A stretch of 64,000 nucleotides of DNA from Nannobrachium achirus. Taxonomy: Eukaryota > Chordata > Actinopteri > Myctophiformes > Myctophidae. Shown here piece after piece: positions 9,150 through 64,000 of the stretch. How positions within the stretch are numbered: the stretch's first letter is position 1; every line of letters starts with the position of its first letter. Location of the stretch: NCBI GenBank assembly GCA_963921795.1, contig OY997640.1:7265091-7329090 (forward strand), given 5' to 3'. The notes below the pieces were generated by a model. The model had not been told where the DNA came from. It saw only the letters and a program-made list of their open reading frames with translations, and did not search any database. Made by a program: the position numbers and the translations under genes.

Positions 9150-9755
9150 GGACACTTACTGTATACACATTTCCCTTCTGCAACCATTCATGAATCACTT
9201 TAAAACTGGCCTCCCTATTTTGAGCATACCATTATGAGTGACGTTTTATTTTTTTTTTGTTCTTTTTTCAAAAATATAGCTGAGTGATGCGATGTGTCAT
9301 GAGCTTGTAAATCGGCTATTTTGTTTGGCGTTCACTTTTTTGCCATTCTCTAGTTTTTTCTTTTTTTTAATGAAATGACGGCTCTGGCTTTGGTCCCCCA
9401 TAGCTATGCAGTATCTAACGATTGTCTGTCTGAGATTTATTTACTCTATGCATCGTGTTTATTTGTGCAAAATCCTGTGCACAGCATTTTCAGCTGACTT
9501 TCCCCACCAGACAGACAGAGAGTGTCTGCTGTACAGTTTGGTCTTGGCTTCTGTGGAGTTTTGACTTTCCATTGAAATTCATCACAGTAAAAACCAGCAG
9601 CCAAGAGCAAAGAGCAACACTCACAAAGTGAGAAAAACAACAACAGACAAACAAAAACTTTCCAGTGCTGCATTTCGAAATACTGCCGCCTGTGTCTGCA
9701 ATCCATTCTAATGGTGGAAATACACAGTATTTATTACTTAACCACTTAAACCCAT
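9150..9755. repeat. Cassette A, upstream module start
   Basis: First copy of a module that recurs at 28905-29470, 50391-50775 and 55475-55870, and in part at 36846-36946 and 43947-44040. It contains ATGAAATGACGGCTCTGGC at 9370. It lies upstream of each zinc-finger copy and is non-coding on the + strand. A minus-strand frame at 9446-9706 encodes a short peptide with a hydrophobic, Cys-rich start; see its own entry. Confidence 0.85.
9446..9706 (-). other. Minus-strand small ORF with signal-like start
   Basis: 86 codons. After about 12 residues comes a hydrophobic segment (WKVFVCLLLFFSLCECC then LLLAAGFYC), like a secretion signal, followed by a Cys-containing tail. Near-identical frames are at 29179-29430 and 50484-50738. 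The copy at 55568-55816 has a shifted N-terminal part, and the partial copy at 36846-36946 is interrupted by the Ngaro insertion. Conservation may reflect recent duplication only. I do not recognise a family. Confidence 0.2.
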
Positions 9756-10859
9756 TGTAAAATAGGGTTAAGCTTTCAGGGCTAATTTAGGTCGTTTGCA
9801 GGGCTGATTTAGGTTGTTTGCATCACCATGGAGCTTCGATTAGAAAGCGAGGACTGGTTGTTCCATGTGTTATGGTTTATTTCTATAAAATACAGATAAA
9901 TACAATTACATTTCATATACATTTCAACATCATTAACAATATTCTTTAAGGGTAATTCAACATCATTAACATTAGTCTTTAAGGGTAATTCAACATCATT
10001 AACAATAGTCTCTAAGGACAATTCAGGTAGATACTGTGGCATACAAACATTAGTTCAGTGATTACTGCATTGACATTTCTACATAATTCACTAAGGCATC
10101 AATACAAATCTACAATCACAATAATAAATACATCACAAACAACTCACGTCATTAACGCATAACATGCTCTCAGGCCAGGGCTCTCTCAAGTAGGTGCACA
10201 TGTTGCTTCTTCTGCTGCTCAGCTCAACTGAGAGTGAGTGCACAGGCAGTGTATACTGTATATAGAGGGACACTGATTGGGGTGAATGAAAACAGGTGAG
10301 GTTGAGTGGAGCAGGTGAGTGAGGGGTGGAGTCAATCAGGGGGAGGGCCGGTGACTTTTCTACAGCCACCCCAAATACGGAGTATTTTAAACACTGAAAA
10401 GTCACTGAAATTGGGAGGGGTCTCGCCGCCCCATGACAAGAATTGGTTGCGGGGGGTGGCTCAGGTGGTGGCAGCTGAGGAGGGGGCCCAGGCACCGAGG
10501 GGGGCTCAGGTGAAGGTGGCAACTGAAGGGGCCCAGGTGTAGGGGTCGAAGGTGAAGACTGGGGCACAGGTGGAGACAGGGGTGCCGGAGGCGGGGTTAA
10601 AGGCGGAGACCAGGGCACAGCTAGAGGAGACGGAGGTGGCGAAGAAGGCGGAGCCCTGGGTGCTGGAGGTGCAGGCATGGGAGGAGCCTGAGGAAGTGGC
10701 CCGGCCGCAGTAGGCGGAGACTGAGGTGAGGGAGTAGGAGCTGGCGGTGGGGCCCGAGGCGGAGTTGACGGTGGGGCCCGAGGCGAGGCTGACGGGGTCA
10801 AAGGCGAAGCCCGGGGAGGCATAGGTGGCGGGATCAGAGGCAAAGCCCGGGGCGCCACA

Positions 10860-11125
10860 GGCGAGGAGACAGGAGGCGGAGCCCGGGGCGCCGGAGGCGA
10901 GGAGACAGGAGGTGGAGCCCGGGGCGCTGTAGGCGAGGAGACAGGAGGTGGAGCCCGGGGCGCCGGAGAATGGAGGCGAGGAGACAGGAGGCGTAGCCCG
11001 GGGCGCCGGAGGCGAGGAGACAAGAGGCGGAGCCCGGGGCGCCGGAGGCGAGGAGACAGGAGGCGGAGCCCGGGGCGCCAGAGGCGAGGAGACAGGAGGC
11101 GGAGCCCGGGGCGCCGGAGGCAGGA
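10860..11125. repeat. ~36-bp GC-rich minisatellite inside the LTR element
   Basis: About seven tandem units of roughly 36 bp built on GAGGAGACAGGAGGCGGAGC then CCGGGGCGCCGGAGGC. On the minus strand it reads as proline-, alanine- and serine-rich repeats. It belongs to the element at 9756-12000. Confidence 0.85.
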
Positions 11126-11415
11126 GGAGGAGGAGACTGGGGAGGGAGCCCGGCTGCAGGAGGCGGAGCAGGAGGCTTGGCTGGTGAGGCCTTAGGAGTC
11201 CTGGACTGGAGAGAAGAAAGTAGATGCTGCATTCTGCTGTTGTTCTGCAGCATTCTACTGTTGTTCTGCAGGATCAAATCCAGTGTCTTCTGCGTGGTTG
11301 GCTTAGCCATGGCAATGCTCTACTTCTCGGGCTTCGAAGGACCATGTGTGGCGGAAAGAGTCGCAGCCCCAGCCTGAAGCCTCAAAAGTCTAGATCTGCT
11401 CTCGTTCCATAGGGA

Positions 11416-11490
11416 TATCCCTTTGGAGTGATGGTTAAGACATTGGACTTTCACGTGGGAGACCCGGGTTCGAAGCCGGGTTCGGATCAC
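11416..11490 (+). other. tRNA-like segment at the primer-binding region
   Basis: On the + strand the segment shows an A-box-like stretch (TGGAGTGATGG), CTTTCAC resembling an anticodon loop with TTC, and a perfect B box (GGTTCGAAGCC) followed by CGGATCA. The acceptor ends do not pair and the anticodon stem is poor, so it is not a working tRNA gene. It lies where the minus-strand LTR element should have its primer-binding site, and similarity to a tRNA extends far beyond the usual ~18 bases. Confidence 0.5.
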
Positions 11491-12005
11491 CTCCGTTACA
11501 CATTTAAAATAGGGTTAAGCTTTCAGGGCTGATTTAGTTTTCATCACCATGGAGCTTCGATTAGAAAGCGAGGACTGGTTGTTCCATGTGTTATGGTTTA
11601 TTTCTATAAAATACAGATAAATACGATTACATTTCATATACATTTCAACATCATTAATTCAGGTAGATACTGTGGCATACAAACATTAGTTCAGTGATTA
11701 CTGCATTGACATTTCTACATAATTCACTAAGGCATCAATACAAATCTACAATCACAATAATAAATACATCACAAACAACTCACGTCATTAACGCATAACA
11801 TGCTCTCAGGCCAGGGCTCTCTCAAGTAGGTGCACATGTTGCTTCTTCTGCTGCTCAGCTCAACTGAGAGTGAGTGGACAGGCAGTGTATACTGTATATA
11901 GAGGGACACTGATTGGGGAGAATGAAAACAGGTGAGGTTGAGTGGAGCAGGTGAGTGAGGGGTGGATTCAATCAGGTGGAGGGCTGGTGACTTTTCTACA
12001 GCCAT

Positions 12006-13248
12006 ACAGTAAAAGGGACCTGAGTTGCGGTGGTTTAATTGAACTAATAGTCCTTGGGCCAAGAGCCAAAATTTCTCACGGGTAACACCTGGGATGGCAA
12101 ATTCTAGTTGTGATTTTTTTTTATTCCAATACATCCCTAGATTACGTTTTGATATGATAGACCTTGCTGACTGGTAGCTAAATTGTTGTTATCAGCTGCT
12201 ATAGATACCGTCCCCCTTTGAAAAATGGCATTTTAGACAAGGGTGCATATCTTGATATTGGCTCATGTTCAGGACATATTGCAAAGTTTTATATTATGTG
12301 TTTGTTATCATTTTTAAGGGGATACTTTGAGCTTTCATTCAAGCCGGCCCTTTTGTGAATATGTATATTATGTACAGTGATCAACTGGAGCTCTTCAAAC
12401 CTTTAATAACAATCTTTTCCCCCACAATTTCCGCCTAAACTATATATTTTCTTTTAGTTCTGTGGCATCAAGAAACAACAACTGGAATACTGACATGACC
12501 CTAAGGATTCAAGAAATGTATAATTTACCCGCAGTATTTCATTCTGAGATGGTAATCTTCAGCCTCATCTTAAAGGAGCTATAGTCAACTTTTTCATTTT
12601 GGCCGTTGTCAGGCTGACTTTGTTTACATCCGTCTTCTATTCTTTTATAATATATAAAAGAATAGAAGAGGGATATAAACAAAGTCAGCCTGACAACGGC
12701 CAAAAATATTATTTTATCATTAGCTTAATTTTTTTCATAAAATATTTTCTAAACATTATTTTTATTTCAGCATCCATTTTTCAAGAAAAAGTTGACTACA
12801 TCTCCTTTAAACAAGCACGTTTTATGAGAAATATACGGGTCAATAGGCCTATATGAAATACCACTAAAACCTCCCTAAACATTGATACAAAAGGGTCTTC
12901 AATTGATTCTGGTACCTTTAGGCATGCTTGAGAACATCCCCAAAATCCAGGAAAATATACTTACCACATTTTCAAGATGGCTGCCGGGAGCTTTAAAATG
13001 GCTTGATTTGAACCAGAAATCAAAACTAACAATGCTGATAACGTGTTTGTCTGTCAGCCAACCAGAAACATGTTTTGAACTTTGGTGAAATGTATTTTGT
13101 CGTAGAGCCTGCCTACTCTATCTGTACATTTGTGCACACACTCATACACACACACACACAGGCATGGACAAATGCTATATCCGTATCCGCTTTATACCGG
13201 ATCTCCAACCTGCAAAGTGATCCCCACTTCATTTAAGCATGTGGACAT
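12006..13248. repeat. Cassette A, distal upstream module
   Basis: Non-coding sequence shared with 29480-31670 (B), 44050-44870 (C), 50800-53105 (D) and, shortened, 55870-56225 (E). Landmarks: AAATTCTAGTTGTGATTTTT, GGCTCATGTTCAGGACAT, TTCAAGATGGC, and a (CA)n tract at 13140-13161. Interrupted here by the TTAA MITE at 12574-12806. A promoter or early exon of the zinc-finger gene could lie here, but none can be assigned. Confidence 0.8.
12574..12806. mobile_element. TTAA-target palindromic MITE
   Basis: 233 bp with inverted ends (AGGAGCTATAGTCAACTTTTT against AAAAAGTTGACTACATCTCCT) and a strong inner palindrome at about 12598-12702. It is flanked by TTAA at 12570-12573 and 12807-12810. Cassettes C (near 44407) and D (near 52677) carry a single TTAA there. 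TTAA duplication points to the piggyBac or Kolobok superfamilies; no transposase is present. Confidence 0.92.
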
Positions 13249-14239
13249 GAATAATTGATTGATTGAAGACTTTATTAGAAGTTTGCATAGGAAAAAGTAC
13301 AGTTTCATGACGGTACAGTTCACTGGTACAAGGTCTACTAAAAGGAGATCCTAGAAAAGACTAAACTTATTTCCACATGAAACCATAAAAGTATCTCATA
13401 TAACATTGAATGACAGACAAATAGACAGTGATGGGCAGTAGCGAGCTACAAGTAGCGACGCTACATAGCTTAACTACATTTTTCAGTAGCGTCACGGTAG
13501 CGCCGCTCGTTTTGAACCAAATAGCTTTTAGCGTAGCGGAGCTATTTTTAGAGCCCAGTAGTGACGTAGCGTCCACCAAACGCTACACGTTACTAATAAA
13601 GGTTTTGCAGAAAAAAGAAAAGAAAAAATCCCCGGAGAAAAGCCATGGTACAGCCTGTGCACATGAATCACAGCTCGTTTTATACTTCTATAGTACAGCG
13701 GAGTCATTTGCCAAAAAGGACAGATCTACAAGCTATCAACGTGTCTCGGCTGAGTCGGCTCTGCAGGGTGTTCGCTCGAAGATCTACCCTTGCTTCCATC
13801 ATGGCTCCTCCCCAATAGCAAGAAGTCACTGCTCTCTGTCTGCACCTATAGAGCATCGCAGTTGAAGCCCCACCCCGTCCTCACTCTGGTGTCGGAAGTG
13901 TTTTCTCCATTCATTTCTTGCATAGACATTTCATAAAGTATTTATTTAAACGTTTTTAAGCCTTGGACAAAGCCACCTCGGCTGGAGAGGAATCATGACA
14001 ATATTCCATTTTTTTTGAATGCAAAGATTAATTCGAAAGCTGAAAAAAATGGCAGGGTACAAGACTGTGTACATCATTATTTTTAAAATTGCGGAAACTA
14101 CACTCCCAGAATGCTTTGCGAATGTTGTTGTTGTTTCATGAAATATAGCCGTTAAATCACGCTCAGTTTAGTTATCCAGGCCAGCATATGGCCTGAAATG
14201 TAGTGATTGTCATCTCTGTGGACTCTCTTATCGTCATCT

Positions 14240-14545
14240 TTAACTAGTGCATCATATTTGTAAAAGAACGTATTCGCTCACGGGAGTTCTGCTGACGTGC
14301 AATAATCTGCCGGGAAGACAGGGGGCAGTAAGCTACTTCCGCGGTAACCGCAAGATATGTGAAAGAAGAAGAAGCTAGACCAATCACAGACGTCGTTTTA
14401 TGTTTAGCAGTATGGGAAATGCAGTTCTTCTCCGTGCGATCTTGATTAAAACGTGTTTTTACTAAAACTAGAGTGATTGCATACATACTCGGGGGTTCTA
14501 CAGGAGCATATGGAACCATTTTACAACCACCAGCCTAGCGGTAAG
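14240..14545 (+). other. Promoter/first-exon-like sequence carried by the hAT
   Basis: GC-containing upstream sequence with CCAATCA (14379-14385), then ATGGAACCATTTTACAACC at 14511, reading MEPFYNHQPS, followed at once by a strong splice donor, AGCGGTAAGTG (~14535-14545). It could be the first exon of the lost transposase or a captured host exon. I do not recognise the peptide. Confidence 0.3.
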
Positions 14546-14646
14546 TGTACATTGAATTGCTACGACTTTGTGGCTGATAATGAAAAACCCTATGGTAAAT
14601 ATGAATGGCCAGCTTGCTTCCGACACCTCACTGCGATGCTCTATGG

Positions 14647-15638
14647 CAGTGATACTCAAACTCCGGCCCGCGGGCCACTTCCGGCCCGTGGCACAATTTT
14701 GACTGGCCCACCAGCTTAATGTCCTCAAAGTTGCGCATCCAACAAGCTTTAAACTGAGCAGATTGGACCTTGCGTTCCAGAGATAATGGCCAAAACATCT
14801 TGAAAACGGCCATAGAAATCGTCAATTTTCGCGGTTTTTTTTTCTCTCTTTTTTTTTACCAGTGGCTCTGCCTCTGCCCAACTTATTAGCATACCCAAAA
14901 TGTTATTGTAGGCCTAATGCAAATGAAGAGACGTACTGTAGCTCTACTTAACAGCTGCATCATTAGCCATTTGGTAGCTAAACAGTCTGGGTAATAATCT
15001 ATTTTAAGTAGATTCTTTGATTTTATTTTATTTTCCTTAACTATCAATTTTCACAAGTTTATTTTCTGTAAAAAGTCATTTGTGTTGAATGTGGCAACAT
15101 CATAAATAACACTGTGAAGCAATTGAAAGAGAGTTGTGCTCAGCTATCTTTAATGTTATCCAACTCGATAGCAGGCAGACAGATATCAACCCAGACAAAT
15201 AGCAGACAAACGTACAGACAAACGCACATTAGTTTGTTTTGGTGTTTTTGTGGAATATGCTAATTTCACAGAATTAATAAAAAGAGAGAAAATGTAGCAA
15301 ATTACTTTGATTACAAATGTTGTCATTGACAGAATTTAAATAGAATTCCAAGCCATAAAATAATGCACATTGCAATTGTCTTATGTGGAAATAAAGCAAA
15401 AAGTTATCAAGTAATGTCATTTTATCAACTGGCCCAACAGGGGATAGCTTCGCTGTTTCTACATGTCATCTTTTCGACACCCAACTCTAACCCTTATCCT
15501 AACCTTAACCTCCGTGGGGTGAGTCGCTAACCCTCCGGTCGAAATGATGGTCGTGCGAAAGAGTGAGATTTTACCGGTCCGCGGCCCCTTGTCATTTTTG
15601 TAATGTGGCCCACCGGTTCAGAAGTTTGAGTATCCCTG
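14647..15638. mobile_element. hAT MITE nested in the 4.1-kb hAT
   Basis: 992 bp with ends CAGTGATACTCAAACTCCGG and the complement of CAGGGATACTCAAACTTC. An exact 8-bp duplication CTCTATGG lies at 14639-14646 and 15639-15646. Both subterminal regions are rich in GGCCCG/GGCCCAC. No transposase. CCTAACC-type stretches occur at 15490-15515. Confidence 0.95.
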
Positions 15639-16041
15639 CTCTATGGTCTGCACCGGACGTGCACCCACTGCAGTGCACACAGAGAGTCAGAGACAGTCAG
15701 ACACGGAGAAGGAGAGACGGAGGGGATATGGTGGTCATATGGAACTAAACCTACACAGTGAAACTGTTATTTGCAACGTTTGCAATGTTAGAACTTCACT
15801 CTTATAACTTTAACCAAATGCGGGTGAAACAGTGAAGGGGACACCACACCGCATGATAGAGTGCACGGAACGACGGACTGGACATACCTCGCATATCGAT
15901 CAAAAACAACCATTCGCACCTCGTTTAAAAAGCGTGCCTCAACGACGTGAATTAACATAAGAATGAGCCATCGGCTGGATGCATATCTGATCCATTGTGT
16001 GACCTGCTAAATTAGTGCTAATGGTTCTGTTCTGTCTAAAG

Positions 16042-16509
16042 CAGAGATGGAAAAAGTACTCACAATTTGTACTTAGTAAAAGTATCAATACTTCGCTGTA
16101 GATGTCCCCATTACAAGCGAATGTCCAGAATTCAAAATGTACTTGAGTAAAAGTATGAAAGTATTGGCATCAAAATGTAGGTCTACTTAAAGTACCAAAA
16201 GTAAAAGTAGGCTACTAAATGTTTGAAAATAGCCAAGGAAGGTATAAAATAGGGCTAAAGTGGAATAATGTAGTGTATATTTTATAATATAATCTTTCAT
16301 AGCTGTAAAGTAGCCTAACTAGTAACTACATTTTTCAAATAATTGTAGTAGAGTAAAAGTACAATATTTGGATTTGAGATGTAGTGAGTAGAAGTAAAAG
16401 TACTGAAAACTGGAAATACTCTGGAAATACTCAAGTAAAGTACAGATACCTCAAAATTGTACTTAGTGTAAGTAGGCCTACAGTAAATCTACTTTACTTT
16501 ACACCACTG
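16042..16509. mobile_element. Second hAT MITE nested in the 4.1-kb hAT
   Basis: 468 bp with ends CAGAGATGGAAAAAGTACTC and the complement of CAGTGGTGTAAAGTAAAGTA, and repeated AAAGTAC/GTACTT motifs inside. Flanks GTCTAAAG (16034-16041) and GTCTGAAG (16510-16517) form an 8-bp duplication with one change. This end type is widespread in fish genomes. Confidence 0.9.
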
Positions 16510-16627
16510 GTCTGAAGTAGTCAAAGTAGAACGTTACACTCAACTCACCATTTATCTGCACTACAGTACAAAATGAATTGTAGGCCTATAACATGAATCA
16601 ATTCAAATGAGAATGTTACTATACTTA

Positions 16628-16676
16628 CTAACTGACTGACTGACTGACTGACTGACTGACTGACTGACTGACTGAC

Positions 16677-16721
<45 letters not shown>
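16628..16721. repeat. Compound (ACTG)n-(TGTC)n microsatellite
   Basis: About twelve ACTG units followed directly by about eleven TGTC units. Other simple repeats not listed separately: (TCTC)n near 23978, (GACA)n 24209-24255, (TGTC)n 54935-54977. Confidence 0.95.
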
Positions 16722-16724
<3 letters not shown>

Positions 16725-16967
16725 AGCATAAAGATTATCCATCCATCCACCCATCTTATCAGCTGTTTCGACAGCACACAGATCAGGGCACTCTTTTGTC
16801 CACAGCTAACTAATGACAGTGAAGTGGCAATTTAAGGACCTTTTAGACATTTTTAATACCTAAAAAATATAAATAAAATACCAAAACTGCATCAAAGTTA
16901 GCAACTATAAAAACTGGTCAAACATTGGCCAATTTGACAATATAGTAAAAGAGGCACAACTTGTGAA

Positions 16968-17036
16968 AATGGCAGATCTACAAGCTCGAAACGCATTGTG
17001 TTCCGAGGTGTTGTGAGCTTGTAGATCTGCTATTTT
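16968..17036. repeat. Palindrome, AGCAGATCTACAAGCTC family
   Basis: Arms GAAAATGGCAGATCTACAAG and CTTGTAGATCTGCTATTTTC around a ~30-base loop. The complementarity continues outward (TTGTG against CACAA). One of at least ten copies in the window; see the findings. Confidence 0.9.
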
Positions 17037-17714
17037 CACAATATTTATCGGTGGAACAGAGTGAAACTAAATGTAATGCCTCAACTCCTAATTCCAATTG
17101 CTTGTCAGGGTGGGGTCCCAAGTTCAAATAGGATTTTTTTTTTTTTTGGGGGGGGGGGGGGGTCACAGCCTGAAAAGGTACACATTTAATTTAAAAAGTA
17201 AATGAAAGGATGAAACAAAAAGCCAGACACGAGGGCTTTTTTCCAGTTTTATAATAATCAATTGAACTGAGCATTTTTTGCCTGACTATTTGTTTGGTGG
17301 AAAGTTGCACTTGATCATGAAGTTGATAAAAAAAAAAAAAAAAAAAAGTAGCTTTGTTGTAGTTAGCTACTTTTGTCGTGTAGCTTGTAGCTTGCTTTGC
17401 TACATTTTCTGTGGGTAGCTTCGTTGTAGCTTAAGCTATATTTCATCAAGAGTAGCTTGTAGCTTAGCTTACTACATTTTCCAAGTAGCTTGCCCATCAC
17501 TGCAAATAGAACACAGTACTATGCTGTAGATATAGTCAGTAAAAAATACAGTGAGTCAATACAAACAGTAAGTATATACAAAAAAGGGGCAGGGGAGGGT
17601 AGGGCTGGGCTAGGTTTGTTTGAAGGGGCAGGGGAGGGTAGGGCTGGGCTTGTTTTTACCAGTTGCGAACGGCTGCTGCCTGTAAGTAGTTTTTCAGGGT
17701 GATTTTGAAGACAT

Positions 17715-18195
17715 TGACGCGACTCATCTGATTTTGACAACTGCCTTCTCCTCCTCGTTCTGGTCCGTTCGGGCCCACTTTCACCCCTGCCTATATAGCA
17801 ACCACACTAATTACTGAATTAAAAAAATTATAAACTGGGTCTAATAAAGGTGTGGCATCTACCTGGATCTCTTCCATCATGGTAGTGACATCACTCTTGC
17901 CCAAATATGGAGGGGCGGCAGCCTGCGCACATCGGTGTTGTCAGGCATGCACGGCAACCGGTTGTGTTGTGACTGAGGTCAGACCAGAGCTCTGCTCAGC
18001 ATGTATAAGACTTGAAAATACTATTGAATTCCACTTCATTCCACAGAGGCCAGAGCGTTCTGTTTTCTTACTCAGTGTCGTGAGAGAAGGAGATAGATAA
18101 CTTAGGGAGTCAGAAAGAGGATAAATAAATTGTCCATTACCCAACGGAACCTAAAACTCTGTTCCTATAACAGTCCATCTATAGATTCAGATTTG
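17715..18195 (+). other. Cassette A, region just upstream of zinc-finger exon
   Basis: Shared by all five cassettes. Landmarks: the GGAGGGGCGGCAGCCTGCGC stretch, CACTTCATTCCACAG (18032-18046), which is a plausible splice acceptor, and TGTCGTGAGAGAAGGAG. Frames here are not preserved between copies, so it is probably intron and/or 5' leader. The first coding exon of the gene, if any lies upstream, was not identified. Confidence 0.55.
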
Positions 18196-19246
18196 ATGAT
18201 GAAACGCCACTTCAGGAAGGAGTCCTCCCAGACTAAGTTCTGATTGTACCTACTCCAGATCTAAGTCGAGCCATGGCAACCTCTATTGCCAAATTCCCAT
18301 AAATGGACAGATCCCCTCAGAATCGTGCCAGCAAATCACCAGAATTGTAACCAGCCAGGAACAAGGAGACACAGATGAACCAGAATCTTCCAGTCATCAC
18401 AGGTTTACCAAGACTTTAACTCAACCAGGAGAAGTGAAGACACATCAGCTGACTTGTACAGGGAAGAAAACTCACATCTGTAAACACTGTGACAAGAGTT
18501 TCAGTAAGTTGGTTCACCTGAAGAGTCATCAGTGTATCCACACTGGAGGAAGACCTTTTCACTGCAACGAGTGTTACAAGGCTTTTTGTCGGTCAGATGA
18601 ACTCAAGATTCACCAGCGTATCCACACTGGAGACAAACCTTTCCACTGTAAGCAGTGTGGCAAGAACTTTAGTGTGTTATGTAATCTGAAGGCACACCAG
18701 CGTATCCACACTGGAGAAAAACCTTTTCACTGTAAAGAGTGTGATAAGAGTTTCAGTGAGTTAGGTACCCTGAAGAGACACCTGCATATCCACACTGGAG
18801 AAAAACCTTTTCATTGTAAAGAGTGTGACAAGAGTTTCAGTCTGTTAGGTCTCCTGAAGAGACACCTGCGTATCCACACTGGAGAAAAACCTTTTCACTG
18901 TAAAGAGTGTGACAAGGCCTTTTGTCGGTTAGATGAACTTAAGAATCACCAACATATTCACACAGGAGAAAAACCTTTTCACTGTAAAGAGTGTGACAAG
19001 AGTTTCAGTGTGTTAGGACAACTGAAGATTCACCAGCGTATCCACACAGGAGAAAAACCTTTCTATTGTAAACAGTGTGACAAAGCTTTTTATCGGTTAA
19101 ATGAACTGAAGATTCACCAGCGTATCCACACAGGAGAAAAACCTTTCCACTGTAAACAGTGTGGCAAGAACTTTAGTGTGTTATGTAATCTGAAGGCACA
19201 CCAGCGTATCCACACTGGAGAAACACCTTTTCACTGTAAACAGTGA
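18196..19246 (+). pseudogene. C2H2 zinc-finger gene copy A, start and fingers out of frame
   Basis: Nine tandem Krueppel-type fingers (C-x2-C-x12-H-x3-H with TGEKPF-type linkers) at about 18475-19230, then a cut tenth finger ending HCKQ and a stop. Such proteins bind DNA in the nucleus. The ATG-ATG used by the paralogues (18196) is followed by an 11-base deletion near 18222, compared with the same place in copies B-E, so that frame stops after about 15 codons. The finger frame itself is open but has no ATG before finger 1. If an upstream exon were spliced at CCTCCCAG just after the deletion, the gene could still work, but nothing supports that. The finger array is closest to copy E. Linker 1 is TGGRPF, unlike TGEKPF elsewhere. 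Confidence 0.8.
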
Positions 19247-20062: not shown

Positions 20063-20067
20063 TCGCA

Positions 20068-53593: not shown

Positions 53594-54403
53594 ATGATGA
53601 ACCGCCACTTCAGGAAGGAGTGTGGTCACAGTCCTCCCAGACTAAGTTCTGATTGTACATATTCCAGATCTAAGTCGAGCCATGGCAACCTCTATTCCCA
53701 AATGCCCATAAATGGACAGATCCCCTCAGAATCGTGCCAGCAAATCACCAGAATTGTAACCAGCCAGGAACAAGGAGACACAGATGAACCAAAATCTTCC
53801 AGTCATCAAAAGTTTACCAAGACTTTAACTCAACCAGGAGAAGTGAAGACACATCAGCTGACTTGTACAGGGAAGAAAACTCACATCTGTAAACAGTGTG
53901 ACAAGAGTTTCTGTAAGTTGGGTCACCTGAAGAGTCACCAGCGTATACACACTGGAGGAAGACCTTTTCACTGTAAAGAGTGTGGCAAGAGTTTCAGTCT
54001 GTTAGGTCCCCTGAAGAGACACCTGCGTATCCACACTGGAGAAAAACCTTTTCACTGTAAAGAGTGTGGCAAGAGTTTCAGTCAGTTGGGTCACCTGGAG
54101 AGTCACCAGCGTATACACGCCGGAGAAAAACCTTTCTATTGTAAACAGTGTGACAAAGCTTTTTTTCGCTTAAATGAACTGAAGATTCACCAGCGTATCC
54201 ACACAGGAGAAAAACCTTTCCACTGTAAGCAGTGTGGCAAGAACTTTAATGTGTTAGGAAATCTGAAGGCACACCAGCGTATACACACCGGAGAAAAACC
54301 TTTTCACTGTAAACAGTGTGACAAGGGTTTCAGTCAGTTAGGTAACCTGAAGAGACACCAGCGTATCCACACTGGAGAAAAACCTTTTCACTGTAAACAG
54401 TGA
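53594..54403 (+). CDS. C2H2 zinc-finger protein, copy D (6 fingers)
   Basis: 269 codons from ATG-ATG at 53594, with the same N-terminal ~95 residues as B and C. Six Krueppel-type fingers: KLGHL, LLGPL, QLGHL, RLNEL, VLGNL and QLGNL types, then the cut finger HCKQ. Finger 3 ends [16 protein letters not shown], a junction otherwise found only after finger 7 of C. D therefore reads like C with fingers 3-7 collapsed to one and 10-14 missing, or C is an expanded D. Finger 1 has an extra Cys (SFCKLGHL), and the linker after it is TGGRPF. Frame intact. Role as for copy B, with a shorter expected DNA target. Confidence 0.9.
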
Positions 54404-54593
54404 AAACCACCATCTGCACGATGGAGGGAGAAAGATAATGTGGTCTCACCGAAATATGTCTGTAGACTGATAAATGCAGGTTGTGCACGGCCACCTGTTT
54501 TGTTCAGCCAGTGCAGCCCATTGGGAAGTGAGTGAGCGGTGATTTTTACGAGTTAATTTCATTAAGAACCATTAACCATTAAGAACCATTATG

Positions 54594-54653
<60 letters not shown>

Positions 54654-54937
54654 TATGTATATATTTCTTCAATCTTTTTTTTTTACCGTTCTCCACAAGA
54701 TATCATATCCCTATGATACCTTTCTGGGGTAAAACATTCAGTTAATTGTAAAAGAGTCAAGTTGTTACCTGTACACTGTTACACTTGGAAGCTTTAGTAC
54801 AGTATTGCCTCGTATATCCCAACAGAGCAGAGCACAGCACAGCCCACCAGAGCCCAATGCAACCCACCAGAGCCCAATAGAATCCAACACCTAAGTCCAG
54901 CCTATCAAACATATCATTTTCCAAATGTCTGAGTGAG

Positions 54938-54977
<40 letters not shown>

Positions 54978-55474
54978 ACAGCGTTTCTCCTCAGTGGCTG
55001 GAGCAATTGCTCTGAAATCGCATCACCATTAGCATATGAACACACCTAACATAACTGTGAAGCCCGTTTGTCACTTTCACAAATCATATACTGTATATTA
55101 GCATTTTTATGGTGTATCTACTATCCATTCTGCATCTAGCATGAGGCACCATGTTTAACCAGCAGGGGGGGGTGTCTGGCCCTGTTACAGATGTTGTCCA
55201 AAAATCATGCAGATTGGTACACAGTATCTCTGTAGCCATTAAACTGAACGGGTATTTTTTACATTGATGCTCCTACATATTATCATGCAAGCACCAGTTA
55301 AAGTTACTTTCCATCCCTCATATACTGTGTGCAGTGCACATCCCATAACCCACACACTGCACATCATGTCGGAGCACATATCTTTGAACGGGTAAGGGCT
55401 AGTTCATACTAGTTTGTCATACTCCCTAAATATGTTTGCACCGCTCACTTCGCACTGGTGAGATTTTTATTTTT
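54404..55474. other. Spacer between cassettes D and E
   Basis: Cassette 3' flank to about 54590, an (AT)n run, the empty LINE target (near 54888), (TGTC)n at 54935-54977, then about 490 bases with no gene or named repeat (GCGTTTCTCCTCAGTGGCTG at 54982 is typical of fish intergenic repeats). Confidence 0.6.
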
Positions 55475-57259
55475 ATGAAATGACGGCTCTGGCTTTGGCC
55501 ACCCATAGCTATGCAGTATCTAACGATTCTCTGTCTGTCTGTGGTTTATTTACTCTATGCATTGTGTTCATTTGTGCAAAATCACTGTGCACAGCATTTT
55601 CAGCTGACTTTCCCCACCAGACAGACAGACAGTGTCTGCTGTACAGTTTGGTCTTGGCTTCTGTGGAGTTTTCACTTTCCACTGAAATTCATCACAGTAA
55701 AAAACAGCAGCCAAGAGCAAAGAGCAACACTCACGAAGTGAGAAAACAACAACAACAGACAAACCAAAACTTTCCAGTGCTGCATTGTTTCGAAATACTG
55801 CCGCATGTGTCTGCAATGCATTCTAATGGTGGAAATACACAGTATTTATTACTTAACCACTTAAACCCATACTTAGTAAAGGGACCTCAGTTGCAGTGGT
55901 TTAATGTAACTAATAGTCCTTGGGCCAAGAGCCCAATATGGGTACCACCTGGGATGGCAAATTCTAGTTGTGATTTTTCTTATTCCAATACATCCCTAGA
56001 TTACGTTTTGATATGATAGACCTTGCTGACTGATAGCTAAATTGTTGTTATCAGCTGCTATAGTTACCGTCACCCATTGAAAAATGGCATTTTAGACACA
56101 GGTGCATACCTTGGTATTGGCTCATGTTCAGGACATATTGCAAAGTTTTATATTGTGTGTTTGTTATCATTTTTAAGGGGATTCTTTGAGCTTTCATTCA
56201 AGCCGGCCCTTTTGTGAATATTAGGGGTGTAACGATATAGTAACTGTATCGAAATATAATTTTTAACTTAAAATATCGAATTAGATTGAAATGAAAACAG
56301 CTCAAATTGAATCGTATCGTTTTATTTTGTATCGTATCGAATCGGCAGTGCAAAGAATCGATTGTATCGATACTACCTACTTGTGCATTGTATTTAGCAT
56401 TTTTAAGAAGAAAAAATGAAAAGGAGGGGTTTAATTACTTTTCCTTTCCTAGTCCCCCCAGGAATCCGCAGAGAAAAAAATCTTTATTCCGCGGAGAACA
56501 ATCCTGATTCTGCGGAATTCTGCGGAGAACATTTCTTGATTCCGTGGACATTAAAAAACAACCTAAAATGACCAGTTATCAAGCTAAAAATTATATAGTT
56601 CTAATAATCAAGTAAAACCCTTCATGAAATAGCTACAATTAATTGTAATTAGTGGTTAGAATAATCAAATAATCATTTTTGAGAATAAAAATCTAATATT
56701 AAATCTATTATTTTTTAATTGCTATTGTTTTTAATAATTACTTTTTGTTGCAAAGACTATATTGTCATCCAAACCATGCCCATAGTAACCACGCGACTCA
56801 GATTTTGACAGCTGCCTTCTCCTCGTTCCGGACCGTTCCGGCCCACTTTCACCCCTGCCTATATAGCAACCACACTAATAAAAAAAAAATAAAAAAAAAT
56901 AAAGGTGTGGCATCTACCTGGATCTCTTCCATCATGGTAGTGTGGTCAAATTCATTACATCACTCTTGCCCAAATATGGAGGGGCGGCAGCCTGCGCACA
57001 TCGGTGTTGTCAGGCATGCACGGCAACCGGTTGTGTTGTGACAGAGGTCAGACCAGAGCTCTGCTCAGCATGTTTAAGATTTGAAAGTACTATTGAATTC
57101 CACTTCATTCCACAGAGGCAGAGCATTCAGTTATCTTGCTCAGTGTCGTGAGAGAAGGAGAAAACTTAGGGAGTCAGAAAGAGGATAAATAAATTGTCCA
57201 TTACCCAACAGAAATTAAAACTCTGTTCCTATAACGGTCCATCTATAGATTCAGATTTG
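55475..57259. repeat. Cassette E upstream modules, with replaced middle
   Basis: Colinear with A to about 56220, including the empty hAT site TACCTTGG at 56107. Then 56222-56790 is unrelated AT-rich sequence starting AGGGGTGTAACGATATAG, a hAT-like terminus without a visible partner. The cassette resumes at GCGACTCAGATTTTGACAGC (56793). The TTAA site and (CA)n part are lost. Confidence 0.8.
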
Positions 57260-58324
<1,065 letters not shown>

Positions 58325-58749
58325 AAACCACCATCTGCAAGATGGAGGGAAAGAAAGAAATGTGGTCACAACGAAATATGTCTGTAGACTGATAAATGCA
58401 GGTTGTGCACAACCACCTGTTTTGTGCAGCCAGTGCTACCCAGTGTGAAGTGAGCGGTGCTCTTTATGAGTTAATTTCATTAAGGACCATTAGTGTCACC
58501 CCCCCCCCAAAAAAAAAGAAAAAAAAAGAAAAAGCCATATTGGTCCAATATGGCTCTTTCAACATTTTGGGTTGCCGACCCCTGCCCCTAAGTAATGGGG
58601 CCAGAAGAGCCATGCTCTGCCGCCTGCCTGTTGTGAGCTTGGAGGTCTGCTATTTTCTATATTTTCACCAAAAGTGCCCTTTTAGAAATGTCAGCCCCTG
58701 CCTCTCTAACGTTCTATGCACGTCCCTGGACCAAATACAAACCATCGCA
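58325..58749. other. Cassette E 3' module
   Basis: Closely matches A's 3' module, including the hAT MITE end with the CCATATTGG palindrome (58535-58580). No gene. Confidence 0.6.
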
Positions 58750-59145
58750 TGTCACGGTTCGGTGTTGTGGTGGTGGTGAGGACCCAAATGCAGAACTCAA
58801 CTCAAAAAGCCAGGAAACCACGGAGGACAGATTACCATACTTTACTGAACTTAAAATATACTGTTAACACAAGCACACATGTATCAAACATAACAGAATC
58901 AAACATACAGGTAAACTTAGGAACGGACAGCAAACCAATGAACCAGCACAGAGAGCAGATACAGGCAGGATTAAATAGTCTCTGACCAGCTAGGCACTCT
59001 TTAGGCCAACAGCTCACAGCTGTGAAGCCGGGGAGGAGCTCAGATTGTCAATCTCCAGGAGGGGAGGGGGCGAGCACGAAAAGGTGAAGTGGGGAAAATG
59101 CCGGGTGAGGCCCTGGAAGTGCACCGTGTGGCACAGATCATGACA
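58750..59145 (-). mobile_element. Solo LTR, copy in cassette E
   Basis: Same insertion as in A and B, TCGCA flanks at 58745-58749 and 59146-59150. Its sequence sides with A (for example CACTCTTTAGGCC), not B. Confidence 0.9.
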
Positions 59146-59494
59146 TCGCAGATGTACTAGTTGTTTTGCATTACTCTGCCATTCAAATTGATCAAAATAA
59201 CATTCAATTCACTAATAATGGTCCTGGATTGCTGCTTAAAGAAACACATTATATACGGACACGTGAATAAATTGAATAGTTATTAGAGCGTTAAGAGAAT
59301 AGAAAATGAGAATAACTTTAATAAAACAGATTAAAATATGAGAATAAAGTTTCAGTGCAGCGTATAAGTAATGGATCAGAAACCTCGGTAAAAGACGGCG
59401 GCATTCAGAAACATCTTCAGCTTTGATATAAAAGAACAGAGAGCTGTAGTAGCAGACCTGCAGCTCTTTGTTCCAGATATGTGACGCATTCAGA

Positions 59495-59933
59495 CAGGGG
59501 CGTCACAATGGGGGGAAAAGTGGGACTGAGTTACCAGGGCCCAAGGTGTAGGGGCCTTAATTATTTTATACTTAAACTATTGAAAAATAGCAGATCTACA
59601 AGCTTGTGGATCTGCTATTTTTTTTAAAGCCGTGAAAATGTGCGCAAATCTTTGAATTTATGTATTTTTTAAGCGAACATTTGTAACTCAAATATTGCTT
59701 CTGGGGGGGGGGGGGGGGGGGGGGGTCCCTGTAACTAAATGTTTTGAGATGGGGTCCGCGGCCAAATACATATCATTTTGGGGGTCCTTGATGTGAAAAA
59801 AATGGAGCACCACTGACATAGAAACATAGTTAAAAAAGAAGAAAAAAAAAAACCTTAGAAGGATTTGAAATATTCAAAGACTTGCACAAATGTTCACGAT
59901 TAAAAAAAAAATAGAAGATCCACAAGCGCCCTG
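59495..59933. mobile_element. hAT MITE (cassette E) with collapsed palindrome
   Basis: Homologous to 34867-35334. The palindrome at 59583-59622 has lost its ~36-base loop, leaving the arms back to back (CAGATCTACAAGCTTGTGG). A G homopolymer lies at 59704-59725. Confidence 0.8.
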
Positions 59934-60198
59934 GCTGTAGCAGACCTGCAGCTCTTTGTTCCAGATGATGTGATGCATTCAGATGGAATGTATTGCTCCT
60001 CCACGTTTTAATTGTGATTCTAGGGACAGAAAGCAGAGCTGTCCCAGATGACCTGTAGAGCTCTGCTAGGTTCATTACGTAGACGAAAGATCAGAAACAT
60101 ATCTTGGCCCCGAAACCATTCGGCAACCAGCAGACACCAAAGGAGCTGACCTCGGGTCAGCTGTAGTCTTACTGTTTTCCTTTCAAACTGCTTCAACG

Positions 60199-60201
<3 letters not shown>

Positions 60202-60275
<74 letters not shown>
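60202..60275. repeat. (GT)n microsatellite, cassette E
   Basis: GT run with one GG interruption near 60234, followed by GCGCGCGCACACAC. Confidence 0.95.
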
Positions 60276-60278
<3 letters not shown>

Positions 60279-60502
60279 ACACGGGCATGCGTGCATGCGT
60301 GTGTCTTTTTCAAATGGTTGCACAGCTCTTTTTGGAATGCATTTCTCATAACAAGGTCAGTTAAACTGATATCACGTCTGACAAGGATTTAGGTTCTCCT
60401 GCAAAACTAGCTTTTGTTCTTACTTCGTAGTGTCAATCACATTTTAAGTATGTGGCTGTTTTGTTTTACTGCAGACATCTTAGTTCTGGAGGCAACTTGA
60501 AC

Positions 60503-61438
60503 CTCTGGTTCTCAACCTTTTCAGGCCACGAACTCCAAAAATAATATTTGAACTGACGAATACTAAGAGTTTGTATAACATGGTTCTAGTGTGAAAATAG
60601 CAGATCTACATGCTCCCACGCCTCGCAGTGAGCATGTAGATTGGCTATTTTCACAATTTCTTTGTTTGTTTATTTGACAATTTGGCCAATGTTTAATTTG
60701 TAATTTTAGAGGTATTAAAAAGTCCATAAATTGTAACTTTAGAAATGTGTAGGTACCCGGTTTGTTTACTGTTGTGTGAGAAAACAGTGTTGCACAATGC
60801 ACATTGAGTTAATCATCATAATGATTAACTAGAATATAAATATACAATAATATACAATATATATAATATATAATGGACCCAATGTGGAAGGGGGGTCCAC
60901 GAATACCCCCCCCCCCCCATTAACCCCCCCCCCCCCCCCCAATGTGGAAGGGGGGTCCACGAATACCCCCCCCCCCACATTAACCCCCCCCCCCCCCCAA
61001 TGTGGAAGGGGGGTCCACGAATACCCCACCCCCCCCCCCCCCCCCCCATAAACCCCCCCCAGTGTGGAGAGGTCACAGATCACAGCCAATCACAGCTGGC
61101 TCAGTGCACATGCTCAGTGAAAATGCAGGTACAGGGAGGGGGAAAAAATCCCTCCCACCAGTGAGAAATCCTGGGACTAGAGAGGTGTGATTTCTGACAG
61201 CAGCCACAGCAGGGGTTCACGCATACTTAAGTAGTGGTACAAAACGGCTATATACCGAACTGAATACTCCTGAATATCTGGTTGATTACCTCTGATTATG
61301 CCGGTTTATTTACTGAATATACTGTCATAGAATGTAGTATACTGGCCCGATAATCTATCTTTTCACCCAGTGTGGGGACGCCCCAAAATAATCCGGGGAC
61401 CCCCCTGGGGGTCCCGACCCATAGGTTGAGAACCACTG
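60503..61438. mobile_element. hAT MITE (cassette E) with the ~530-bp insertion
   Basis: Homologous to 35884-36797, palindrome at 60595-60654, including the C-rich minisatellite at 60879-61064. Present in B and E only. Confidence 0.75.
60879..61064. repeat. C-rich minisatellite, cassette E
   Basis: Three AATGTGGAAGGGGGGTCCAC units with C runs. Run lengths and spacer wording differ from 36254-36421, as expected for slippage or for poor base calling in C runs. Confidence 0.93.
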
Positions 61439-61587
61439 CTCTAGTCTATATTTTCGTTTTCCAACCTTTCCAGTAATTTTACCTCAAGTTTTGACTTTCC
61501 ATTGAAATTCATCACAGTAAAAACCAGCAGCCAAGAGCAAAGAGCAACACTCACAAAGTGAGAAAAACAACAACAGACAAACCAAAA

Positions 61588-64000
61588 ATGTATGTTGGTT
61601 ACAATATGGGTTCGGGAGTAGAGATCTCACACTGAATATCACAGCTACCCCCTGCTCATTCATCTCATGAGTCCACACACCTATCACAGCCACTCCCCCT
61701 CTCTCAATCATCTTATCAAAGTTACCTGCCTCCTCTTATCAGCCAGCCAATCCCCGCTGTAGTCACCACAGTACAAATACACCCGCAAGCTATCACTTAG
61801 TCGTTCCTACTACTAACGTGGTCTCGAACTACTGACACCACGCATAGTGTTCTCAACCTTTCGCTTCATTCGCTTGCTAAAACTAGCTCATTTTCGTTCA
61901 TTGTTTCTCTCATTCATTCGCTCATTTTCGTTCATCGTTTCTCTCATTCATTCGCTTAAAAGGTAAGGAAGGAAGCAGGCAGTTTAGCCATTTACTTTTC
62001 TATATTGTAAAGCACGCTGCTAGCAGCGCTGCTGCTACAACAGCTTAGCAGCACATTTCCTCTTACCTGCTGTCATGGAGGGAGAGATCATCATTAATGC
62101 TTCGGACGAGGAGCTCTTCTCCTCCCCAGCTCAAAGCCACGTCTCGCGAACGCAGAGTCCGGCCGTCGCGCCGGATTCAAACAATACTCCACCATCAAGA
62201 TCAGGTTCTATTCCGGCAGCTCAGCCGAGCCCGAGACCTAACCAAATCCAACACGTCGCTCAGGTTCACAACAGCAGAACAGTCTCGCTTTCCAGCCGCT
62301 CCAATGCCTCTCGCCATGACGCAAACGCTTCCGCATCCGATTCCAACAGCGGCCATATTAGATCCAACACTATGTCCCAGCTGACAATGGCTGACTGGAC
62401 AGTACGTGGCCTGAAGCGGGTGCTAGAACAGAGAGGCGTCCTGTTCCAGAACACCGACCGAAAAGAAGTACTTTTCCAGCTTTACAGAAGTGAATTTCCA
62501 CGCTCCTCTTCTGTCAGATCCGGTGAGGCCCCGCCCACCCGGCCCACTCGTTCTAGTGTCGCCGCCCACCAGACACGCGCCCGGCCCACTTCCCTCCACC
62601 CCCCTCCCCCACACGCTCGCTGGCCGGCGCGCTCCTCATCAGCAACTAACCAACCTCCCCCCCCCCTCCCTCTCGAGCACGCTGGCAGGCGCAGAAATGC
62701 ACCTGACCCTCTTCCAACTCACCCTCCCTCCTCCTCTCACCCCCTCCCTCCTGAGCACGCTGGCAGGCGCAGAAATGCACCTGACCCTCTTCCAACCCCC
62801 TCCCCCCCTCCCCCCACCCCCTCTCTTCTGTACATGCTGGCAGGCGCAGAAATGCACCTGACCCTCTTCCAACCCCCCCCTCCTCCTCAAGACATCAGCA
62901 GGGGCTACGCCCCCCATCTTCCAACCCCCCCTCCCGCCCTCCTAATCAAAGCCGACGCCCACACCCTTCATCTCCATCTCCTCGTGGGTCGTCACATCAG
63001 CGCACGCCAACCGCTTCTCCGAACCATCATCAGGCTCGCCACAGAGATGACACCCGTACACCTACTCGCGTGGCTCCGCCCCAGCAGAGAGTTCATCGCC
63101 CGGATCATGAGATCTCGCCTTCCCCCTCCCCTTCACCATCAGCTCGACGCGTAAATCCGCCATCACCAGCACGCAGCGTAAACCCTCCAGCACGCCGTGT
63201 TAATCCTCCATCACCAGCACGCCGTGTAAACCCTCCATCACCAGCACGCCGTGTAAACCCTCCATCTCATTCACCAGCACGCCATGTAAACCCTCCATCT
63301 CATTCACCAGCACGCCGCGTAAACCCTCCATCTCATTCACCAGCACGCCGTGTAAACCCTCCATCTCATTCACCAGCACGCCGCGTAAATTCCCCAGCAC
63401 GCCGCGTAAATCCTCCTCCATCAGCACGCCGTGTTAATCCTCCAGCACGCCACGTAAATCCTCCAGCACCAGCACGCCGTCGCCGCCCAGTTGCATCACC
63501 ATCTCCAGCCAGGTCGCCACGTCGGCGCACGCCGCCTCCTTCTCAGTCTCCTTCCCCCGTTAGCGCTTCACCGCCCCGGCGCCACGCACGCCGCAGGGGC
63601 CGCCATAATTCTCCACCCCAACTTGCCCATGCAGCTCCTCCCCAGCGGAGAGCTCGCCACCACTCGCCTCAGTCTCCCCCGCCTCAAGCGCCTGTTCCAT
63701 CAACCAGCTCCACCCCCGCCGCCCAGGCCCTTCTGCCCGCTGGTGCAACCGTCACCCAGGCTACGCCTCCACCAGACCCAAGCCAAGTGTTGGCGCTAGT
63801 TTCCTCACTATTCTCCCAACTCTCCCAAGCATCTGCTACCACTCCTCAAGTCCAGAAACCGTTCAATCCTCTTCATCCAGCCCCCACCCATACACTCGCT
63901 TCAGCCGTTCCAGCAACCCCTCCACAGTCTGCCGCCGTCCGACCTTCTCCAGTTCCAGCAAACCTCAGACAGCAGATCCTCAACGGTGCGTATGTTGATC
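61588..64000 (+). mobile_element. Second Ngaro copy, 3' part outside window
   Basis: A1-type repeat from 61588 (to about 61825), then leader and gag-like region as at 36947-39360. Very similar throughout. It sits in the same CCAAAA flank after the same truncated module (61486-61587), so it is the duplicated copy of one insertion rather than a new one. RT, RNase H and recombinase parts would lie beyond the window. Fossil; copy state beyond 64000 unknown. Confidence 0.93.

Follow-up and report, generated by a model that had tools for sequence, protein, structure and literature searches.

The window analyzed here, a stretch of 64,000 nt from Nannobrachium achirus, contains five arrays of C2H2 zinc fingers, all on the + strand, and yielded 47 C2H2 motif matches compared to 0.3 expected by chance (mean of 20 Markov-1 random windows). 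The arrays belong to neighboring genes with at least five C2H2 fingers each, connected by HTGEKP-type linkers. An earlier sequence-only reading of this DNA had reported both the arrays and their finger numbers, and both were borne out: there are nine full-length fingers in copy A, ten in B, 14 plus a shortened one in C, six in D and eight plus a frame-broken one in E (Table 1). Copy A has no in-frame Met upstream of its fingers; its canonical ATG is gone, and it carries an additional 11-bp deletion. The frame of copy E is broken in finger 8 by three 1-base length changes in homopolymer runs, and finger 9 is back in the original frame.

Table 1 Features of the zinc-finger locus in window coordinates.
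Feature	Position	Strand	Details
Cassette A	9152–21944	+	Defined by collinear chains and by LTR junctions compared with the empty site in B
Cassette A, parts	9152–9755 and 12002–13248; 17710–19246; to 21944		5′ module (two pieces); leader/exon; 3′ module
Cassette A, interruptions	9756–12001; 13249–17709		LTR element; 4.46-kb insert
Copy A finger frame	18203–19246	+	9 fingers (18479–19213)
Cassette B	28900–36846	+	3′ module of the A/E type
Copy B ORF	32166–33311	+	From ATGATG: 98-aa N-terminus and 10 fingers
~24.6-kb unit	34500–59100	+	Direct repeat to the right, at ~59.1–83.7 kb
Cassette C 5′ module, truncated left piece	36850–36944	+	Joined to the end of the 3′ module of B; right piece restarts at 43945
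Ngaro-type tyrosine-recombinase retroelement in the 5′ module of C	36945–43946	+	RT ORF and weak recombinase match
Copy C ORF	45360–46913	+	N-terminus and 15 fingers; finger 12 is 12 bp shorter
LINE-type insertion in the 3′ flank of C	47729–49553	-	RT ORF 47742–49547
Cassette D	50377–54905	+	
Copy D ORF	53594–54403	+	N-terminus and 6 fingers
Cassette E	55466–61487	+	Recombinant
Copy E ORF	57260–58156	+	N-terminus and 7 fingers; frame break in finger 8
Crossover zone in E	58575–59168	+	Mismatch profile
Second Ngaro copy	61586–64000	+	Same junction; continues beyond the window edge

The description as a five-copy cassette did not hold. At least 18 such genes are located at C3:7.20–7.43 Mb, within ~222 kb, so that the number five is an edge effect of the slice taken from this larger cluster. 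The reading frame is intact in 14 of these 18, open over 6–15 fingers, while four copies, including A and E, are broken.

The same module order had been proposed for all five places, running from a common start sequence via an upstream module, a leader and an ATG-ATG finger exon to a 3′ module. This was confirmed for the arrays and for the acceptor-like leader, which contains CATTCCACAG in all five cassettes, but not for a shared ATGAAATGACGG start or for five complete sets of modules. We found ATGAAATGACGG exactly at 9370 in A, 50391 in D and 55475 in E, with one mismatch at 29079 in B, and nowhere in C; there the 5′ module is cut short at 36850 and interrupted by the Ngaro element. As the start of a shared coding exon this sequence was discarded: the longest frames from its ATGs comprise 40 (A), 68 (B), 64 (D) and 178 (E) codons, short and of unequal length with the exception of E, and the 12-mer occurs 85 times genome-wide (both strands summed) versus 138 times for its reversed control. 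The ATG-ATG finger exon exists in B–E, as ORFs including the N-terminus, but in A the start is lost. Instead of a single 3′ module there are two types, one in A, B and E and another in C and D. The 5′ module of C is nearest to B in 100% of bootstraps, whereas its leader, exon and 3′ UTR are nearest to D in 99–100%. The 5′ module of D groups with E in 97% of bootstraps when C is left out and in 77% in a shorter stretch with all five. Cassette E has an E′-like leader, N-terminus and array and a B-like 3′ part from ~59.2 kb, E′ being its counterpart to the right of the window. The cassettes are mosaics because recombination swaps 5′ modules, fingers and 3′ modules.

Several transposons reside within these modules. 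Ngaro retroelements encode an RT and a tyrosine recombinase, have split direct repeats and produce no target-site duplication. The element in C, which we take to be an Ngaro as did the sequence-only reading, shows this combination: an RT above the Pfam cut-off and a recombinase below it lie between split direct repeats (36945–37188 equals 43415–43658, and 43202–43416 equals 43732–43946), the corresponding site in B is empty and no target duplication is present at the junction. The LINE in the 3′ flank of C is bordered by the duplication ATCCAACACCT; the matching site in D is empty, and the LINE is present again in the next unit. The LTR element of A is not found in B–E, and its matching site in B is empty. 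As the LINE is missing from the matching site of D and the LTR element from B–E, some insertions postdate the divergence of the cassettes.

The ~24.6-kb unit contains the Ngaro, the LINE and cassettes C, D and E. Comparing 35001–58323 with 59596–82930, we obtained four matching segments, 97.7–99.3% identical; the longest spans 10,479 columns, of which 29 are mismatched. Both elements have the same junctions in the second unit as in the first. Gene blocks were here duplicated together with their resident elements. The proposed amplification of the cassettes with their transposon load is thus correct for the youngest step, in which Ngaro and LINE were copied along with C, D and E, but not for several other insertions, which are private. 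Within cassette E, the crossover zone separates a left part nearest to E′ from a right part nearest to B. Over leader and N-terminus, E differs from E′ at 4 of 761 positions, compared to 45 of 761 between B and E, and the fingers of E show 0–3 differences from those of E′ versus 0–12 from those of B. In the stretch from 58.58 to 59.17 kb, neither B nor E′ is closer to E (12/587 and 13/585). From 59.17 kb onward, B and E differ at 0–2 positions per bin, one bin excepted (7/149), compared to 1–23 for E and E′. This pattern, in which B, E and E′ match one another piecewise, places an unequal crossover just 3′ of the array. The exceptional bin, at 59,722 in E, lies to the right of this position and is at odds with one clean switch. 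We also considered whether the crossover behind the duplication took place in the Ngaro and rejected this, because the step in identity falls in the 3′ module.

The last growth step was accordingly an unequal crossover between a B-type and an E′-type cassette immediately 3′ of their arrays, by which ~24.6 kb with the embedded Ngaro and LINE were duplicated. Because several genes plus transposons were copied by one crossover in the 3′ flank of the genes themselves, transposon load and finger repertoire rise together without transposition. Overall, we read the region as a slice of a young tandem C2H2 cluster, within a large genome-wide family, that has grown with its transposons; this reading as a whole, including the functional roles outlined below, is considered probable (roughly 0.6). 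It provides a resolved case of zinc-finger cluster growth in addition to the mouse cluster compared below.

The N-terminus common to B–E, as previously claimed, comprises 98 residues, and its core forms a single open frame with the finger array. It had been reported to match no recognized domain. Searches of Pfam and PDB with the N-terminus indeed gave no match above chance, including any to an effector domain, but it is a real feature of the family, present at at least 150 places genome-wide. The family thus consists of many paralogs with a common N-terminus matched by none of the models searched. Relatives were looked for in viral contigs, and none were found there. A three-frame + strand Pfam scan of the stretches upstream of B, D and E gave no effector exon and no KRAB in any of nine translations, and the N-termini contained no KRAB either. 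A genome-wide search for KRAB gave no match and, as its control likewise matched nowhere, says nothing on the genome. Structure prediction was of low confidence for the N-terminus alone (pLDDT 48.6) and together with three fingers (mean pLDDT 61.1). The dN/dS of the N-terminal core was 0.49 in the C3 group, 0.47 in a further group and 0.42 in a distant group, and variable sites amounted to 12 of 293 in the N-terminus versus 31 of 149 immediately upstream. Judged by these substitutions, the N-terminal core is under purifying constraint.

The characterization as a fast-changing C2H2 cluster proved correct: the DNA-contact residues are strongly diversified on a conserved finger frame. Their positions have the highest entropy among all 20,475 four-position sets (p 4.9e-5), in the window and the cluster alike. 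For the contact positions we obtained a dN of 0.48 and a dS of 0.31 in the window fingers, and 0.49 and 0.37 in the 96 distinct fingers of the cluster, versus 0.08 and 0.32 at the other positions of the latter; since these values pool fingers that recombine, the contrast is no clean test of positive selection.

Two reading frames, with two start codons, are found for the first N-terminal residues. In B–E only the first ~17 residues are odd, as they lie in a switched frame; the switch is due to an 8-bp deletion in the window clade and to different indels in other members. The distant group has the canonical frame, one locus excepted. We tentatively suggest that the two start codons lie just upstream of the conserved core and that indels repeatedly switch which of them feeds it, so that the first ~17–27 residues are exchanged completely and core and fingers are retained. 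In the window clade, the frame leading into the core has moved to another start codon, with translation presumably starting at ATGATG. The overprinted codons have a dN/dS of 0.84 in the presumed coding frame versus 0.43 in the old one, but these values rest on few changes, and the use of ATGATG is therefore not supported by selection. If the suggestion is true, having two starts would protect the family from the effects of frameshifts or provide alternative N-terminal ends, exchangeable for one another, that interact with different partners. A persisting old ATG would then be a short ORF overlapping the new start that could tune translation, although part of the cluster has lost it. The two-frame start is also an experiment set up by nature, from which one may learn if these proteins depend on their N-terminal end in any way.

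Two other explanations of these first residues were weighed. They may be untranslated in both frames if the exon begins near residue 18–25 and is spliced to an upstream exon with the start and an effector domain. Acceptor-like sites close to the start would fit, as would the varying length and place of the indels upstream of the core, with nine spacings among 48 frame-0 loci. We nevertheless consider this unlikely, as all 12 loci taken from outside the frame-0 group retain the canonical frame and vary in spacing by multiples of 3 only, and the third frame occurs in just one of 61 placed loci, copy A (20 of the 61 were selected for frame 0). In addition, the three upstream stretches contain no domain, and 15 of 20 oriented matching loci have no homology upstream of the leader within the 1.0–1.5 kb examined. 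Still less likely appears a decay in which the C3 cluster lost a needed N-terminus by the frame switch and in which nothing but their young age accounts for the survival of the arrays. It would be consistent with the four broken copies among 18, the loss of the canonical ATG in 6 of 16 C3 copies checked and the overprinted codons, for which no constraint is evident in the new frame. The 14 copies intact across all their fingers, a core dN/dS in the C3 group close to that of the distant group and the sharp fall in variable sites where the N-terminus begins speak against it, each weakened by the young age.

The duplication itself might be an assembly artefact, with haplotypes set in tandem. To the left of the window, a near-identical block ends at a 200-N gap (7242783–7242982). 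This left copy of the 5′ part of A and its LTR element was rejected as a true duplication, as the gap at its end indicates that it may be a misplaced haplotype. Such a block, and the clustered homopolymer changes in finger 8 of copy E, which resemble long-read errors, would be expected from an artefact. However, no gap separates the two 24.6-kb units, E and E′ have unlike finger numbers (9 versus 10) and the mosaic profile of B, E and E′ is the expected trace of a crossover, making an artefact very unlikely. With regard to function, the proteins would bind different DNA sites through their 6–15 fingers, and the N-terminus may recruit a partner. The analogy to KRAB and FiNZ zinc-finger proteins suggests that the cluster could mainly serve to silence young transposons. 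It is possible, though on balance doubtful, that the proteins are fast-evolving DNA-binding factors that regulate host genes, such as in the germ line or the early embryo, with no special anti-transposon role and with transposons accumulating because the recombinogenic cluster duplicates them passively. Block duplication raises transposon copy numbers and requires no binding, and in mouse, segmental duplication yields TE-rich zinc-finger clusters, according to PMC12575710. Against it stand the diversified contacts in many paralogs, as described for a TE-repressing zinc-finger family in PMC10547256.

The cluster is closest to three known systems. The KRAB-like zinc-finger genes of ray-finned fish, proposed in PMC11603059 to repress elements through TRIM33, similarly combine a non-KRAB N-terminus with tandem fingers. 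The N-terminus described here did not match the Pfam KRAB model in the stretches searched, and the comparison with the KRAB-like genes is by description only. The cyprinid FiNZ genes, as presented in PMC10547256, resemble the present family in being a large C2H2 family with a conserved N-terminus without known domain, TE-rich clustering and fingers under diversifying selection. They differ in that FiNZ comprises 28 residues and has an upstream exon of its own, whereas the ~100-residue N-terminus shares the open frame with the fingers. A tblastn search of the window with an uncurated FiNZ consensus retrieved nothing better than chance-level matches (E 5.8 or worse). The young KRAB-zinc-finger cluster on mouse chromosome 4 is described in PMC12575710 as recombinogenic, containing coding genes and pseudogenes and having grown through segmental duplications in which blocks of several genes were copied along with their transposons. 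Tandem C2H2 genes and block duplication with passenger transposons are common to both clusters. In the fish cluster, however, a KRAB domain was not seen, the crossover took place in the 3′ flank of the gene itself rather than within an element, and the passengers seen are Ngaro and LINE elements, in contrast to the ERVs in mouse.

Matches to the finger motif C-x2-C-x12-H-x3-5-H without stops number 47 in the window, which contains no N; 20 random windows drawn from a Markov-1 model average 0.3. They lie in five cassettes (A to E), each with a 5′ module, leader, finger exon and 3′ module; cassettes and intervening stretches were delimited by collinear BLAST chains. The finger numbers of the sequence-only reading (9, 10, 15, 6 and 8–9) were confirmed, counting a shortened finger in C and a broken one in E. 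Its common module order holds for A, B, D and E but not for C, where the left part of the 5′ module is missing, and its single 3′ module for all five was not found, as the type in C and D differs from that in A, B and E. Directly left of cassette D lies a palindrome-like inverted repeat (49785–50329; 545 bp, 74%), perhaps a MITE at the cassette boundary. Chromosome-internal telomere-like CCCTAA/GGTTAG runs occur at 2627–2869, 3636–3666 and 28094–28141; such runs lie near the left edges of cassettes A and B.

Zinc-finger arrays of the five cassettes (positions in the window)
Array	Position	Strand	Fingers
A	18479–19213	+	9
B	32460–33278	+	10
C	45654–46880	+	14 and one shortened by 12 bp
D	53888–54370	+	6
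E	57554–58291	+	8 and one broken

Positions 35001–58323 recur to the right at 59596–82930 in four segments that are 97.7–99.3% identical; in the longest, 29 of 10,479 aligned columns are mismatched. The pair of cassettes D and E, which lie 5.08 kb from each other, is found again 24.6 kb rightward, and D differs from its right-hand copy at 21 of 4,005 sites. By its sequence, E combines a front like that of E′, its near copy in the second unit, with a back like that of B. Leader and N-terminus show 4 mismatches in 761 sites between E and E′ and 45 in 761 between E and B, and the eight readable fingers of E have 0–3 mismatches to an E′ finger and 0–12 to a B finger. In the two bins that directly follow the arrays the values are 11/262 (E–E′) and 25/250 (E–B), and at 58.58–59.17 kb they are 12/587 and 13/585. 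From 59.17 kb on, bins of up to 150 bp hold 1–23 mismatches between E and E′ and 0–2 between B and E, with one exception at 59,722 (9 and 7, respectively); across the Ngaro part, the downstream copies of B and E differ at 4 of 2,414 sites. This profile points to an unequal crossover between copies misaligned by about 24.6 kb, with the exchange immediately 3′ of the array. No assembly gap separates the two units in the 204 kb checked, the sole gap there being 200 N at C3:7242783–7242982 (C3 is the contig of the window, which spans C3:7265091–7329090). About 19 kb left of this scaffold gap match window positions −4804 to 14578 in pieces with 96.5–99.6% identity, and this block, rather than being a tandem copy, may represent a misplaced haplotype.

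Older exchange is suggested by nearest-neighbour and bootstrap comparisons, in which the closest relative of a cassette shifts along its length. The 5′ module of C is nearest B (1 mismatch in 262 sites versus 9 in 258 to D), and its leader, exon and 3′ UTR are nearest D (99–100% of bootstraps). The 5′ module of D is nearest E, with 97% in a longer stretch without C and 77% in a shorter one with all five cassettes. In A, the 3′ UTR is nearest E (2/176), finger 1 is nearest that of B (1 mismatch in 84), and fingers 2–7 and 9 are 0–1 mismatches from those of E, in comparisons that omit the broken finger 8 of E and the short finger 12 of C. The simplest reading is that fingers and flanks were swapped by recombination, which would cover gene conversion and crossover alike.

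The proposal that the cassettes were amplified with their transposon load fits the youngest unit, where the Ngaro and LINE junctions of C are repeated (three of four exact, one with a single mismatch), but fails as a general description. Copied by duplication are the Ngaro and LINE in C and its near copy C′ and an insert of ~530–555 bp that B and E carry in their 3′ modules; B and D share insert ends with unlike interiors. However, the sites matching the LTR element of A are empty in B–E, its 4.46-kb insert is missing at the matching sites of the other cassettes, and the LINE of C is missing at that of D. The LTR element is found again in the block ending at the 200-N gap. A hAT element (5563–8998; TIR TAGAGCTTAAA, 8-bp target duplication CCAGCCAC) contains a long transposase-like frame on the minus strand (6661–8529) with hAT dimerisation, Hermes DBD and BED matches. 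The near-identical block to the left of the window lacks this element at the matching site, and the insertion is therefore recent or polymorphic.

We searched the species' own genome (1.66 Gb, 564 contigs) and found more arrays in the 204 kb around the window, with all motif matches there on the plus strand. An 8-bp deletion marking the window clade, searched genome-wide with up to one mismatch, occurs at 28 places: 18 in C3:7.204–7.426 Mb, one at C3:8.445 Mb and nine on contigs C6 and C9. Reading the frames of these 18 (16 in a joined stretch, two in loci L028 and L029) showed 14 to be intact from the presumed start codon pair, ATGATG, to the usual end; the four broken ones are A and E of the window and those at 7217068 and 7255318. 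In the window, B, C and D each have an uninterrupted frame running from ATGATG (at 32166, 45360 and 53594) to the common end ...HCKQ*. Copy A has no in-frame Met upstream of its fingers, because its N-terminal part has an 11-bp deletion and the upstream ATG has been lost. Finger 8 of E is broken by three one-base length changes within ~70 bp, all in homopolymer runs, and the corresponding finger of E′ is in frame; a sequencing error is possible.

The 12-mer ATGAAATGACGG, proposed as a start common to the five cassettes, has only three exact copies in the window (9370, 50391 and 55475); the copy in B (29079) carries one mismatch, and C has none. A stop follows two codons after the first ATG in the exact copies, and the longest frames from either ATG are unequal (40 codons in A, 68 in B, 64 in D, 178 in E), with a common stop residue in B and D and an earlier end in A. 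Given these frames and 46 + 39 genome occurrences versus 69 + 69 for the reversed control, we rejected it as exon evidence.

The N-terminus ahead of the fingers had been said to match no recognised domain, and this stands: its 98 residues gave nothing above cut-off in Pfam and nothing below E 2.4 in PDB, and twelve aligned family members nothing better than E 0.069 in Pfam and nothing up to E 10 in PDB. The family is absent from the libraries searched and was not found in a limited search of open-access literature by words, not by sequence. In the genome, it exceeds 150 places. The 98 residues gave at least 150 scored matches (1,626 candidates) on 22 of the large contigs C1–C24, the 107-residue majority form at least 150 (2,460 candidates) and the 74-residue core, the later, conserved part, at least 150 (2,003 candidates); among the matches listed, one, none and one, respectively, contain a stop. 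Further dense groups at C10:15.467–15.583 Mb (spacing mostly 10–12 kb), C18:45.93–46.03 Mb, C20:53.49–53.55 Mb, C4:53.12–53.14 Mb and C13:46.28–46.30 Mb look like additional tandem clusters. Structure models of the N-terminus had low confidence. Its last 25 residues (residues 73–98, e.g., 45576–45653) resemble a finger and look like one that lost its cysteine pair.

The start of this N-terminus seems to be read in different frames. Twelve loci were chosen because their 98-residue matches begin within the window form, at residue 18 in ten loci and at residues 19 and 10 in one each; in all 12, one ATG opens the same 15-residue start, or a variant, into the core, with start-to-core spacings differing by multiples of 3 only. 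In the window clade, the 8-bp deletion lies ahead of the core and ATGATG opens the frame; as this pair is offset by one base from the old start, the first 17 residues are the same DNA in another frame. Locus L052 reaches the ATGATG frame through an 11-bp deletion, as do 20 more loci through different indels (19 shown open, L079 placed), which were chosen for matching from residue 1–2 and are hence biased to this frame. Altogether 61 of 62 loci were placed (not L070): 48 fall in the ATGATG frame, where nine different spacings occur, 12 are canonical and one, copy A, is in a third frame. Counted by hand, the 60 best among the listed core matches, looked up among the listed matches to the 98- and 107-residue forms, comprise 29 canonical, 23 shifted (eight on C3 at 7.2–8.4 Mb) and 8 unplaced loci. 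The dN/dS of the core (residues 18–98) is 0.49 for 15 C3 loci, 0.47 for another 13 shifted loci and 0.42 for 13 that are more distant (12 canonical and L052). Upstream of ATGATG in the exon, 31 of 149 sites are variable, and downstream of it 12 of 293. For the overprinted codons (12 distinct forms, 27 loci), dN/dS is 0.84 in the new frame and 0.43 in the old, with 5, 5 and 4 variable sites across codon positions; on these few changes, the rates count against the two-frame reading. The old ATG is kept in 12 of the 18 cluster copies and is ATC in A, E, E′, 7364099 and the other two broken copies. The frame-switched start deserves a test.

Canonical C2H2 fingers with intact linkers bind DNA, and from this fold and their intact linkers the fingers of the cluster are predicted to do so. 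Among all 20,475 sets of four finger positions, summed entropy is highest for −1, 2, 3 and 6 (p 4.9e-5). At these contacts, dN is 0.481 and dS 0.314 in 37 distinct window fingers (elsewhere 0.083 and 0.305), and 0.485 and 0.373 in 96 distinct fingers of the 204 kb (elsewhere 0.085 and 0.317). The excess of dN over dS, in rates pooled over recombining fingers, would fit diversifying selection. Transposon repression is described for the KRAB and FiNZ families in published accounts (PMC12575710, PMC10547256, PMC11603059), and by analogy these zinc-finger genes may act likewise. The locus is of a known kind, with a last growth step that is unusually well resolved.
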